IMG/VR virus record: IMGVR_UViG_3300020166_001048
Coordinates: 1 to 64,000 of that record
Length of the DNA: 64,000 nucleotides
Reading direction: 5' to 3' (one strand)
From: a virus
Position 1 is the first letter of the stretch; every line of letters starts with the position of its first letter. The position numbers were made by a program, and so were the translations under genes. Shown here one piece after another: positions 15,234 through 37,449 of this stretch. The notes beneath the pieces are model-generated. The model saw only the letters and a list, made by a program, of their open reading frames with translations. It was not told where the DNA came from and did no database searches.

Positions 15234-15397
15234 ACAATTGGATTGATATAGATAACTTCTTGCGTGGACTTATTATTGCATCCAAGGACAACGAACAACT
15301 ATATGCTGATGCTATGAAGAAGTTTAATTGGAATCGCAGTCAAGCAACGGCAGCAATTGAACCTTTAAAAAATAGGTTGACAAAGCATACAGAGTAG
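15230..15397 (+). CDS. 55-residue unknown protein
   Basis: Coupled to the upstream gene by an ATGA overlap. Mostly helical (MNNWIDIDNFLRGLIIA, then QLYADAMKKFNWN). Its last codons contain the -35 box of the tmRNA promoter. Confidence 0.6.
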   Translation: MNNWIDIDNFLRGLIIASKDNEQLYADAMKKFNWNRSQATAAIEPLKNRLTKHTE

Positions 15398-15407
15398 TGT
15401 ATAAATA
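15377..15407 (+). promoter_or_regulatory. tmRNA promoter: consensus sigma70 with overlapping T4 late motif
   Basis: TTGACA (15377-15382), 17-nt spacer, TATAAA (15400-15405). The -10 is also a perfect T4-type late promoter, TATAAATA (15400-15407). The tmRNA could therefore be transcribed both early and late. Confidence 0.8.
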
Positions 15408-15420
15408 GTATTGTAACGTT

Positions 15421-15733
15421 GAAGCAATTTGACGACTGAACTGGACCTGGGGGCAGTACCCAGCAGCTCCACCATAAACACACTATACCTCTGGGAGTTC
15501 CCGGGGGAAACCTTGCAAGTTGTAGTGTGTTTTTGATGGGGCTGAACTAGGATCGACAGGCAGGATAGAAGAGTGGAGTTACCGGGATGTAAGCGCCGTT
15601 ACCGCGAACAAACTTTCTAAATGCAAACGCAAATAGAGCGCCAGCAATGGCAATGGCAGCCTAGTTAGGCTTCCGGGGTGGATCACCTAGCAACAGAACG
15701 ATCAAGAGAGTGTTGCAGCAATGTGACACTCTC
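15421..15733 (+). ncRNA. ssrA: Circularly permuted (two-piece) tmRNA
   Basis: Acceptor piece first: T-arm CTGGG-GGCAGTA-CCCAG (15447-15463), 3' acceptor strand CAGCTCC (15464-15470) and encoded ACCA to 15474. Coding piece second: GGGGCTG (15538-15544) pairs with CAGCTCC (one G-U) and is followed by the conserved GGATCGAC region. The tag begins at GCA 15623 and reads ANANRAPAMAMAA before TAG (15662-15664). This gene order and the tag (AN-N..APx..AA) match alphaproteobacterial two-piece tmRNA. tmRNA rescues stalled ribosomes and tags the product for proteolysis. The intervening 15475-15537 would be removed. Exact ends are estimated. Confidence 0.92.
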
Positions 15734-15742
15734 GTTTTATTT
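15706..15742 (+). terminator. Terminator of the tmRNA
   Basis: Perfect 8-bp stem GAGAGTGT/ACACTCTC (15706-15713, 15726-15733) with a 12-nt loop, then GTTTTATTTT. Confidence 0.85.
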
Positions 15743-15855
15743 TACTACAAAATCGCTGGATTTTGCATTTTTACGAGTTACATCTATATAATTAATACGT
15801 TGGGCAAAAGAGAATCCCGCCCACAAAAAAATCATTAATTATGAGGAAATTTAAA

Positions 15856-16659
15856 ATGCGTACATTCGTACTAGCAACGGTAGCTGCAATGATTGCTACA
15901 TCTGCACTAGCAGAAGACACAGCAACTCCAGCTGCTCCAGTATTGTCGGGTGCAATAAATCTTGACTTTGCTGAAAACGGAAGCGACAAATACAAAGGCA
16001 CAATGGGTGTTGAATTAGATATCGACGCAAGCGATGTTGCAACTGTTGACCTAGACTTTAAAGCAACAGACGGCAATTCATTGACATTAGACACATGGAC
16101 AGTTGGTACAACAGTAAACGGTCTTGATCTAGCATTTGGCGATAACAACAATCTAATGCCAGAAACAACAGCGGCTGCTGGTGCTACTGGTACACTAACA
16201 AAACCAGCAATGACTGAGTCACTAATGGTAACATCAGGTGCAGCAAGTGTAGCAATTGGTCTTTCCAGCTACGCAACAGACATCACAGAAGTAAGCAACC
16301 TACAAGGTGCATACACAATGGATGCAGGTATTGCAGACGTAACAGCAAGTGTAGACTATAACCGTACAAGTAAAAACTATGTATGGGGCGGTGAAGTTTC
16401 CGGAATTAATGCAGGATCACTAGAAGTGGGTAGCCTACTCACATATGACAATGATGCAAATCATTGGGCATACGAAGGTACTGTAGATGCTGGAAATGGT
16501 TTCACAGCATACGTCAACGGTGACGAAACTGACATGAGCCAGAACATTGGCGGCGAGCATGTAATGGGTTTCGCAGGTGCTGAATTAACATCAGGCATCA
16601 ACTATGACCTTGACACTGAAGACCTAACACCAAACGTAAGCCTATCCTTTAAATTCTAA
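15856..16659 (+). CDS. Outer-membrane beta-barrel (porin-like) protein
   Basis: 267 residues. The start at 15856 is set by GAGGAAA 7 nt upstream; ATG 15841 lies within that ribosome-binding site. A typical Sec signal peptide (MRTFVLATVAAMIATSALA, then ED) is followed by amphipathic strands with periodic Asp/Asn/Gly turns and a C-terminal LSFKF. The terminal Phe is the BAM recognition signal of outer-membrane barrels. No Cys and few basic residues. A phage could use it to change host permeability or shield its receptor from superinfection. It is a stand-alone transcription unit between two terminators. Confidence 0.8.
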   Translation: MRTFVLATVAAMIATSALAEDTATPAAPVLSGAINLDFAENGSDKYKGTMGVELDIDASDVATVDLDFKATDGNSLTLDTWTVGTTVNGLDLAFGDNNNLMPETTAAAGATGTLTKPAMTESLMVTSGAASVAIGLSSYATDITEVSNLQGAYTMDAGIADVTASVDYNRTSKNYVWGGEVSGINAGSLEVGSLLTYDNDANHWAYEGTVDAGNGFTAYVNGDETDMSQNIGGEHVMGFAGAELTSGINYDLDTEDLTPNVSLSFKF

Positions 16660-16726: not shown

Positions 16727-16761
16727 ATATGGGTACGTTATTTAGACCGGAGAATTATAAA

Positions 16762-17355
16762 ATGTGGAAATGGATAGGATATATCACAGCAGTCTTGCCT
16801 TTGATTGGTGTGTTGTACGGAGGTCTTAGAATCGCCAGTGATCTACAAACTTCGCTTGAACAGTCTATACAGACATCAGCAGATGCTCACGCAAGGATAG
16901 ATTCTATTGCACAATCCCAAAAAGACATCAACAATCAACTATTAGATTTACAGTCAATCAGTGCTGAAGTAAACGGAATTGTAGGATCATTAGAGCGTCA
17001 GAAAAATGACTCAGTCACACGTGGTCAATTGGACACATTAAGAGATCAACTCTCAGCACTGAAAGAATCAATCAGTGCTGAAGTAAACGGAATCGTAGAA
17101 TCATTAGAGCGTCAGAAAAATGACTCAGTTACACGTGGACAGTTGGACACATTAAGAGATCAACTCTACGCACTGAGAGACACACTTGAACAGATGGGTA
17201 ACATGTCAAACAAAGTTTCAGATATCTACAGCAGACTTGACAAGATAGAACGTGAAGTTAACAACACACAGATAGATGATGATAAACGCATCCACAATGT
17301 CTTGAAGGACATTGAAGAAATATTTAGACGGTTAGATAGAGCTAATATTGATTAG
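16762..17355 (+). CDS. Membrane-anchored coiled-coil protein with an internal duplication
   Basis: 197 residues. Start at 16762 is set by CGGAG upstream; an ATG at 16729 lies right at the promoter. The N-terminus is one transmembrane helix (WIGYITAVLPLIGVLYGGL), the rest is heptad-like helix. A 38-residue block, SISAEVNGIV...LERQKNDSVTRGQLDTLRDQL, occurs twice in tandem (114-nt period near 16956-17183, almost identical DNA), so the duplication is recent. Resembles spanin-like or membrane-tether proteins in layout; function unknown. Confidence 0.7.
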   Translation: MWKWIGYITAVLPLIGVLYGGLRIASDLQTSLEQSIQTSADAHARIDSIAQSQKDINNQLLDLQSISAEVNGIVGSLERQKNDSVTRGQLDTLRDQLSALKESISAEVNGIVESLERQKNDSVTRGQLDTLRDQLYALRDTLEQMGNMSNKVSDIYSRLDKIEREVNNTQIDDDKRIHNVLKDIEEIFRRLDRANID

Positions 17356-35645: not shown

Positions 35646-35941
35646 ATCCAACCCATTAGGATTTTAGTATCGTCGGGAACCATATCTAGGCTAAACGGTG
35701 GATCAAACACTAGTTGCCTGTCCACAGTTTCAACACCGTCGACACCTTGCACTGCTTCGTCGATGTCATTGCAAATTTGATCTGCAAAAGGGCACATCAT
35801 GCTAGTAAGTGTGTGTTCCACTATGCAATGTGATCCGGTTATTTCAATGTTGTAAATTAATCCCAAATCAAATACATTAATTGCAACTTCTGGATCGTGC
35901 ACTTGTCGTAGTGCATCTTCTACTTTTTCAACTAACTGCAC
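35642..35941 (-). CDS. SufT/MIP18-family (DUF59) Fe-S assembly protein
   Basis: 99 residues. DPEVAINVFDLGLIYNIEI is the DUF59 hallmark, and TLTSMMCPFADQI carries the conserved Cys near residue 49. SufT/PaaD-like proteins help load Fe-S clusters on client enzymes. It overlaps the carbamoyltransferase by 10 nt; the radical SAM proteins around it are the likely clients. Confidence 0.85.
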   Translation of the reverse strand: MQLVEKVEDALRQVHDPEVAINVFDLGLIYNIEITGSHCIVEHTLTSMMCPFADQICNDIDEAVQGVDGVETVDRQLVFDPPFSLDMVPDDTKILMGWI

Positions 35942-37449
35942 ACTGTAACTCCGTATTCTTTTTCAAATCTGTCTGCATCTGCTCTGTCGTCAACCATTGG
36001 TTCGCCGCGAATGTTCAACGATGTGTTTAGCAACATTGGGCACCCTGTTTCTTTGAACCAAGCTTCTAATAATTGTCTAATGCCACTACCGTCGTCGGGT
36101 ACTGTTTGCACTCTTGCTGTACCGTCTACGTGTGTAATAGCAGGAAACTGGTCCGGATGTTTAACTGGCGCTACTACCTGCATGTAATGCGATGTGTTTT
36201 GATTTTTTGGCATATCAAAATAATCGTGTACATGTTCTTCAAGTATTACTGGTGCAAAAGGACGAAATTTTTGCCGCCTTTTTATTTCATTTACTTTGTC
36301 TTTAATTTCAGGCCCACGTGGATCAGCAAGTAAACTTCTGTTTCCAAGAGCACGTGGACCAAACTCGGCTTTACCACTTGCTACTCCTACTATTTTTTTA
36401 GTCTTTAATTGTTTAATCAATTTCTTTACTGGATACTTACCCGGAATATCAGTGCCCAGTAATGCTGTGTGCCAGTTGACTTTTTTGCCATATGCTAGTG
36501 CCGCAGCACCTAAACTACTACCTGCATCTCCCGGGTTGGGCATGATCCATATGTTGTCAAAAATATCACCCAACTTGCTGTTTGCTACGCAATTAAGTGC
36601 AACACCGCCCATATAAACAAGATTGTCCGAACCTGTTAATTCTTTAGCCTTGTGCATCACTTGCATAATCAACTCTTCACAAAGTTGCTGCCCTGCGGCT
36701 GCGATATCCATTTCGTCAACGCCTGCAGGAAACTCCAAGTCTTGCATGCCAATGTGTAAGTTTCTTTTAAATTTTGCCATTGATGTGTCGTCTATTAGAT
36801 TATCAACCAACGTGCAGTATGCCTTTGTTGCATCGCCATATGCTGCCATGCCCATTGTGATGTATTCTTCATCCATTGGGCGCAAGCCTACACGCTGCGT
36901 AACAGCACTATAGTACATGCCGATGCTGTTAGGATACTGCTGACACCAAACACGCTTGTATTGGGCCTGTCTGTGCTTCTTATACCCCAAGTAACCAGTG
37001 GTAGCATCGTCGTATCTAGCTTTGTAAATGCTGATAGTATCTATTTCGCCGATTGCATCAATTACAACAACAGCGGCTTCGTCGTAAGGCGATGTTTGAA
37101 ATCCACCAGCAGCGTGACTCATGTGATGCCCAACATTGGTTATAGCACCTTTGTGTTCTGACATTATTATCGGAATTGTATTTTTAAGTTCTGACTTTAG
37201 TCGCCAGTTACCACCCCAGGGTTCACCGCTGAGAAATTTACGCAACTGCCGTTTCCACGGTTTTTCATAGTATACAATTTTATCAAATGGGCCGTGTGCA
37301 AGGGCTGCCATCTCAAGTTCTAGGCAAATATTATTATCGTTTTTCTGTTTACTGTAACGCTCACTATGGCCAGCAAATACAATTTCGTCATCATGCAACA
37401 CAGTTAATGCTGCATCATGAAATCCTGCACTAACTCCTAGTATTTTCAT
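35932..37449 (-). CDS. NodU/TobZ/CmcH-family carbamoyltransferase
   Basis: 505 residues. MKILGVSAGFHDAALTVL starts the N-terminal ASKHA-like domain, NVGHHMSHAAGGF holds metal-binding histidines, and ALGNRSLLADPRGPE with KFRPFAPVI and NTSLNIRGEPMV complete the family pattern. Transfers carbamoyl from carbamoyl-phosphate through carbamoyl-adenylate to a sugar hydroxyl (nodulation factors, tobramycin, cephamycin). Here a glycan or aminoglycoside-like acceptor is likely. Confidence 0.92.
   Translation of the reverse strand: MKILGVSAGFHDAALTVLHDDEIVFAGHSERYSKQKNDNNICLELEMAALAHGPFDKIVYYEKPWKRQLRKFLSGEPWGGNWRLKSELKNTIPIIMSEHKGAITNVGHHMSHAAGGFQTSPYDEAAVVVIDAIGEIDTISIYKARYDDATTGYLGYKKHRQAQYKRVWCQQYPNSIGMYYSAVTQRVGLRPMDEEYITMGMAAYGDATKAYCTLVDNLIDDTSMAKFKRNLHIGMQDLEFPAGVDEMDIAAAGQQLCEELIMQVMHKAKELTGSDNLVYMGGVALNCVANSKLGDIFDNIWIMPNPGDAGSSLGAAALAYGKKVNWHTALLGTDIPGKYPVKKLIKQLKTKKIVGVASGKAEFGPRALGNRSLLADPRGPEIKDKVNEIKRRQKFRPFAPVILEEHVHDYFDMPKNQNTSHYMQVVAPVKHPDQFPAITHVDGTARVQTVPDDGSGIRQLLEAWFKETGCPMLLNTSLNIRGEPMVDDRADADRFEKEYGVTVCS

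Follow-up and report, generated by a model that had tools for sequence, protein, structure and literature searches.

A two-piece alpha-type tmRNA gene in a T4-like phage genome and its relatives in other phages

Bxz1-type phages and phage G have tmRNAs in the standard, one-piece form, which are not known to be of the alpha type. As in the case described here, the tmRNA genes of mycobacteriophages (Bxz1 and kin) and of Bacillus phage G (PMC4131195) are carried by large phages. Two-piece tmRNAs of dozens of marine phages, the isolated T4-like methylophage Melnitz among them, were published in 2022, and 53 two-piece forms were present among the 133 unique tmRNA structures found in public phage genomes in 2021 (PMC9004378). 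The two-piece phage tmRNA is already known, and the gene examined here is a further member, of a phage-only version.

The gene is located in a window of 64,000 nt (the whole stretch of DNA that was analysed), taken from a linear virus record of 135,142 bp (IMG/VR record IMGVR_UViG_3300020166_001048). The record encodes a T4-type portal (gp20), a major head protein (gp23), a gp55 late sigma factor, SbcCD-like gp46/47, a tail-sheath family protein and baseplate proteins, and an earlier reading of the window as a phage genome, made from the sequence alone, was borne out by gp20, gp23, gp55 and the tail and baseplate genes. The portal and head proteins are nearest to those of Sinorhizobium phage Phosso, Agrobacterium phage Atu_ph07 and the PA5oct group, at 49–66% identity, indicating a distant T4-like phage. 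Seven tRNA genes were found in the record, all of them within the window.

Directly after the tmRNA gene, a secreted-looking protein with a signal peptide and a repetitive, porin-like look is encoded at 15841–16659 and has no match in Pfam or PHROGs. At 16729–17355 is the gene for a coiled-coil-like protein in which SAEVNGIV..LERQKNDSVTRGQLDTLRDQL occurs twice, as an internal duplication. A long gene block (29525–51801), in which most of the genes tested had no PHROGs match, includes weak radical-SAM-like proteins and a NolO-like carbamoyltransferase (35932–37449), and may represent an island for the modification of sugars or of the surface.

When phage genomes were searched with the DNA of the tmRNA gene, several roseobacter/Rhodobacter phages gave matches, as did Melnitz. 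In IMG/VR, at least 120 viral stretches fitted the pattern used for scanning, and most of them were called as permuted tmRNA by ARAGORN. The Melnitz/pelagimyophage form resembles that in the window in being an alpha-type permuted tmRNA of a T4-like marine phage with an ANxN...AA tag (PMC9004378), and the Melnitz gene shares the TTGACA-N17-TATAAATA promoter and a compact 3′ part (29 nt in Melnitz). However, the aligned mature parts are only 64% identical, the Melnitz tmRNA is followed by a glutamine riboswitch that an Rfam scan did not find in the window, and a conserved ORF is present in the 142-nt intervening sequence (IVS) of Melnitz, whereas that in the window is 63 nt with no ORF. The Roseobacter/Rhodobacter phages MD18, DSS3P8 and RcXuper also encode an alpha-type permuted tmRNA, but form a separate group in the tree, have a 3′ part of intermediate length (53–54 nt) and lack TATAAATA. 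The tmRNA genes of MD18, RcXuper and DSS3P8 (L122, L124 and L125, respectively) are unannotated in the deposited genomes, and in L122 and L125 a GOLLD RNA is located just upstream.

Anatomy of the gene and the trimmed coding piece

Two Rfam models matched the window on the + strand in cmscan, RF01849 alpha_tmRNA at 15361–15707 (114.8 bits, gathering score 50, E 1.4e-30) and RF04321 tmRNA_permuted at 15413–15664 (105 bits, gathering score 47), and ARAGORN independently placed a permuted tmRNA at the same position, with the tag ANANRAPAMAMAA and a stop. The sequence-only reading had proposed a full circularly permuted alpha-type tmRNA, with a covariance-model search as a check, and both models, each above its gathering score, agree with ARAGORN on that identification. 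The coordinates it gave (15421–15733) left out the promoter and the first few bases of the acceptor piece, and the tmRNA itself occupies ~15413–15705. The features are as follows.

15377–15382, + strand: sigma-70 −35 element TTGACA, exact consensus, 17 nt ahead of the −10 element (from the sequence)
15400–15407, + strand: TATAAATA, a sigma-70 −10 element (TATAAA) fused with a T4-type late promoter octamer (from the sequence)
15413–15474, + strand: acceptor piece, with the GUAAC joining strand, T arm, acceptor 3′ strand CAGCUCC and encoded ACCA (start of the RF04321 match, ARAGORN)
15475–15537, + strand: IVS of 63 nt, a segment excised from known two-piece tmRNAs, here a hairpin extending the acceptor stem, no ORF (folding z-score)
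15538–~15705, + strand: coding piece, with the GGGGCUG acceptor 5′ strand, D-like arm, GUUAC, tag region and short 3′ part (3′ end inferred from the terminator)
15578–15582, + strand: GUUAC joining strand in the coding piece (read from the sequence)
15623–15661, + strand: tag reading frame ANANRAPAMAMAA, with stop TAG (UAG) at 15662–15664 (ARAGORN)
15691–15697, + strand: CAACAGA motif in the 3′ part of the coding piece
15706–15743, + strand: intrinsic terminator, 12-pair stem, 4-nt loop and T-rich tail GTTTTATTTT (terminator call, refolded)

The elements were confirmed to follow one another in the permuted order, from the acceptor 3′ strand through the IVS and the acceptor 5′ strand to the tag, and the GUAAC at 15413 pairs with the GUUAC at 15578, as read from the sequence, joining the two pieces. 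Alanine identity is provided by a G3-U third pair (GGGGCUG / CAGCUCC-ACCA) and an encoded CCA, with the remaining acceptor pairs intact. Among the matches listed, G3-U was present in all 120 viral loci with an acceptor partner, and the rest of the acceptor stem varies in the viral loci by matched changes (GGGGGCG/CGCCTCC, GGGGCTG/CAGCTCC, GGGGTCG/CGACTCC, GGGGATG/CATCTCC). The whole precursor folds 3.85 standard deviations below shuffled sequences (z −3.85).

The host alpha_tmRNA found on chromosomes of Alphaproteobacteria (RF01849) shares with the window the gene order, tRNA-like domain, G3-U pair, resume/tag layout and CAACAGA motif, but mostly scores ~160–310 bits against 115 in the window. 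The distance from the tag stop to CAACAGA is 26 nt in the window and has a median of 26 nt in viruses (quartiles 25–32), whereas the median in hosts is 67 nt (64–69). The description of the gene as complete therefore holds for the helices, tag, stop and G3-U pair but not for the ~40 nt after the tag that are present in most host alpha tmRNAs and absent from the window and most of its phage relatives. A host-like 3′ part is a usual feature that the Rfam models do not require, and as the short form is usual in phage members, it marks a sub-type within the alpha-type permuted tmRNAs. This ~40-nt shortening of phage tmRNAs appears to be undescribed in searchable papers.

Promoter and terminator

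The start predicted from the −35 and −10 elements, ~15412, is one base 5′ of the first pair of the joining helix. The promoter is missing from the list of a generic scanner because that program requires T at position 6 of the −10 element. The sequence TATAAATA is the T4 late promoter, and the T4-like phages RB49, S-PM2 and Syn9 are known to have early promoters that overlap with late ones (PMC2984593). In the 135-kb record, TATAAATA occurs 7 times, against ~11 expected under a first-order Markov model. None of the 7 copies lies inside an ORF of at least 70 aa, and 4 are found 33–141 nt before large ORFs (463–1811 aa) in virion-gene regions. Only the copy at the tmRNA gene is part of a TTGACA-N16..18-TATAAATA arrangement anywhere in the record.

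An exact TATAAATA was found at the same place upstream of the tmRNA in 42 of 74 viral loci, which are related and thus do not represent 42 independent events, and in none of 60 host alpha_tmRNA loci. As background, the octamer occurs in 0.9% of 80-nt windows taken at random and in 4.0% of the regions preceding ORFs in these viral loci. In a wider set of viral loci gathered by DNA pattern, 70 of 118 carry TATAAATA, clustered 68–77 nt before the acceptor end. The hybrid TTGAC(A/T)-N17-TATAAATA recurs, with an exact TATAAATA in 39 and a 17-nt spacer in 48 of 54 strong promoters, and the Melnitz tmRNA (L123) has the same hybrid promoter; the authors who described it assumed early expression from an early promoter (PMC9004378). 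The steady attachment of a hybrid early/late promoter to the tmRNA gene appears to be new as far as searchable papers go.

Both the octamer at promoter distance and a gp55 homologue (record coordinates 85661–86575) are present, as needed for T4-type late control of this predicted promoter. Since TATAAATA also holds an acceptable sigma-70 −10 element, late use is suggested rather than dictated by the motif. The sequence-only reading had placed the tmRNA in a period of heavy late translation, and the octamer at 15400–15407 speaks for that timing at the level of a motif. A perfect coupling of octamer and gp55 was not found: some records, those of L030, L076 and L087, have gp55 but no octamer at the tmRNA. 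Some octamer-bearing records, many records being fragments, have no gp55 match, including the 183-kb record of L064.

Intervening sequences and the genes within them

The IVS hairpin of the window is stable (folding z-score −3.7), and no ORF was found in its 63 nt. The IVS is longer in viruses (quartiles 62, 83 and 119 nt) than in host alpha tmRNAs (9, 22 and 39 nt; Mann-Whitney p 5e-18, a guide only as the sequences are related). An ORF longer than those in 95% of base-shuffled versions is present in 19 of the 57 viral IVSs of at least 90 nt. Small IVS ORFs were found in L116, L083, L024, L028, L012, L061, L069, L110, L121 and L037, and further in L123, L018, L023, L098, L103, L022, L003, L009, L233 and L234; the T-arm pattern that was used misses L057, L223 and L028. 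Several of the ORFs have GGGGA/GGAGA-type motifs resembling ribosome-binding sites directly 5′, and several encode membrane-like hydrophobic segments. The peptides had no matches of note in Pfam or PHROGs.

In the six IVS ORF families that could be compared between contigs, pN/pS was 0.07–0.49 with pS up to 0.9, and the ORFs of L116 and L083 differ at 33 synonymous and 9 non-synonymous positions. By this measure, the IVS in relatives of the window gene, though not in the window itself, encodes predicted small proteins under purifying selection. One of these is the 69-aa family B protein, whose relatives in viral contigs number 290; in the best 80 loci it is mostly encoded by a gene standing alone, with tmRNA flanks unrecognised in 70, and in 9 the gene lies between the two tmRNA halves. 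In L233 and L234, scored as unflanked by the simple flank test, closer reading showed a 443-nt IVS that holds two genes in succession, of which the second encodes a family B protein. In Melnitz, an unannotated ORF (MFKWL...) that is conserved in L037 begins within the IVS and extends into the 5′ piece of the tmRNA.

Among published permuted tmRNAs, one is reported to contain a tRNA gene in its IVS and another to contain a repeat there (PMC11915505), and no published report of protein genes in a tmRNA IVS was found in searchable papers. Protein genes within the discarded part of a tmRNA would be an unusual arrangement, in which one transcript would yield a rescue RNA and a small protein. It is about an even question whether marine T4-like phages have their own tmRNA sub-type, in which a trimmed body is combined with a hybrid early/late promoter active throughout infection and an enlarged IVS accommodates genes for small and often membrane-like proteins, which are co-transcribed with the tmRNA and excised at maturation, with the gene in the window a member that has the hairpin only.

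Tag, function and origin

The tag ANANRAPAMAMAA ends in Ala-Ala before the TAG stop. An ANxN start and a hydrophobic-Ala-Ala end are preserved in most of the 76 viral tags, which would be expected if the tag is still in use. Like 9 of the 76 viral tags, ANANRAPAMAMAA has no D or E. A tag without the acidic residue common in host tags might alter degradation (for example by being less SspB-dependent) and so spare or recycle particular proteins, and selective tagging of host proteins was proposed by the Melnitz authors (PMC9004378). However, such redirected tagging is unlikely, as D and E are likewise missing from 8 of 59 sampled host tags, the hydrophobic-Ala-Ala end is kept, and 54 of the 76 viral tags have the ANDN start seen in hosts. 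The tag had also been thought to differ from those of hosts, but that of host locus L158, ANDNRAPAMAVAA, is nearly the same.

No SmpB gene was found in the 135-kb record, which is perhaps incomplete, or in 18 other tmRNA-bearing viral records, so dependence on a compatible host SmpB is assumed. The lack of a phage SmpB and the compact body would also suit a decoy, a phage RNA competing for SmpB or AlaRS and thereby dampening host trans-translation, and a tmRNA with little beyond the tRNA-like domain, such as that of phage DS6A, inhibits tmRNA when expressed (PMC4131195, PMC11915505). A tRNA-like decoy would need no tag frame, stop or resume region, yet all three are kept across divergent phages, which makes this explanation quite improbable.

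The gene probably specifies a working, phage-adapted two-piece tmRNA that would rescue ribosomes during infection together with host SmpB, AlaRS and RNase P. The need for a compatible SmpB from the host, the ~40 nt missing from the body and the imperfect link between octamer and gp55 weigh against this reading. From the anatomy of the RNA, the promoter and terminator motifs, the conservation across phages and the lack of SmpB in the record, we infer its expression, processing, charging, rescue activity, timing and benefit to the phage along the following lines. Transcription would begin at ~15412 from a promoter readable by both host sigma-70 and phage gp55, and end at the 15706–15743 terminator. 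The IVS hairpin would be removed by host RNase P and exonucleases, leaving the acceptor RNA and the coding RNA held together by the acceptor and joining helices. Host AlaRS would charge the RNA via the G3-U pair, and host SmpB would bring it to ribosomes stalled on broken mRNA, which are plentiful during infection. The nascent chain would receive ANANRAPAMAMAA, the ribosome would be freed, and host proteases would clear the product.

Over an alignment of the coding piece from its start to the tag stop, the T arm and the acceptor, with the IVS left out, the closest sequence found was that of the unclassified viral contig L057 (88% identity over 172 positions), followed by viral contigs with tags such as ANDNRAPAMAIAA (70–76%). 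L057 has the same promoter as the window, but L057 and L223 have a shorter tag (ANANIALAA) and a different IVS hairpin. The best identity among 47 sampled host sequences was 61%. In the FastTree tree, the window sits beside L057 in a viral group that is separate from hosts and from the roseobacter phages (deep-split support 0.90). In AU tests, a tree with a main viral clade was not rejected (p 0.85; its likelihood exceeded that of the free search by 37 units), and neither was one that joins the window with hosts (p-AU 0.41, 8.8 units below), as only ~170–180 columns were available.

The acceptor/D-arm pattern GGGGCTGAAHTAGGATCGACAGG occurs in only two stretches among the genomes of 84,980 species. 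One is a second, short tmRNA of Labrenzia sp. OB1, whose main copy scores 302 bits, and the other is in a contig binned as a Bacteroidetes MAG. Recent capture from a host is disfavoured by the identities (88% viral, 61% best host) and by the rarity of GGGGCTGAAHTAGGATCGACAGG in genomes, and these also indicate that the direct donor was probably another phage. The sequence-only reading had held that the gene must come from an alphaproteobacterial host, permuted tmRNA being a trait of that group. The alpha type still fits such a host as the original source of a gene that has probably long been passed among phages, but probably not as the immediate one. Betaproteobacteria and cyanobacteria have the permuted form as well (PMC11915505, PMC9004378).

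As tmRNA genes are frequent integration sites, and capture via imprecise excision has been proposed (PMC9004378), the gene might be a mere passenger, either recently captured or a functionless relic. This is highly improbable, as the relatedness to phage genes argues against recent capture, and all helices, the tag and a phage-type promoter are intact. Phage tmRNAs are easily taken for stray host genes. Under the preferred reading of a working rescue RNA, the conserved phage-specific promoter, common trimming and phage-to-phage kinship suggest that phages keep ribosome rescue for themselves, probably into the late phase. Both this retention and the IVS protein genes are open to direct test in culture, using Melnitz and its host.

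The short Labrenzia sp. OB1 copy (L130, 2769–3136) is a divergent permuted tmRNA with the tag VADNDNDWVAAKAVA, located beside a putative transposase-like ORF, and is possibly of phage origin. The other stretch, a 17.9-kb contig binned as Bacteroidetes UBA4009 (L131), carries a phage-type permuted tmRNA with the tag ANVNAKPSGFALAA and is probably a misbinned phage contig.
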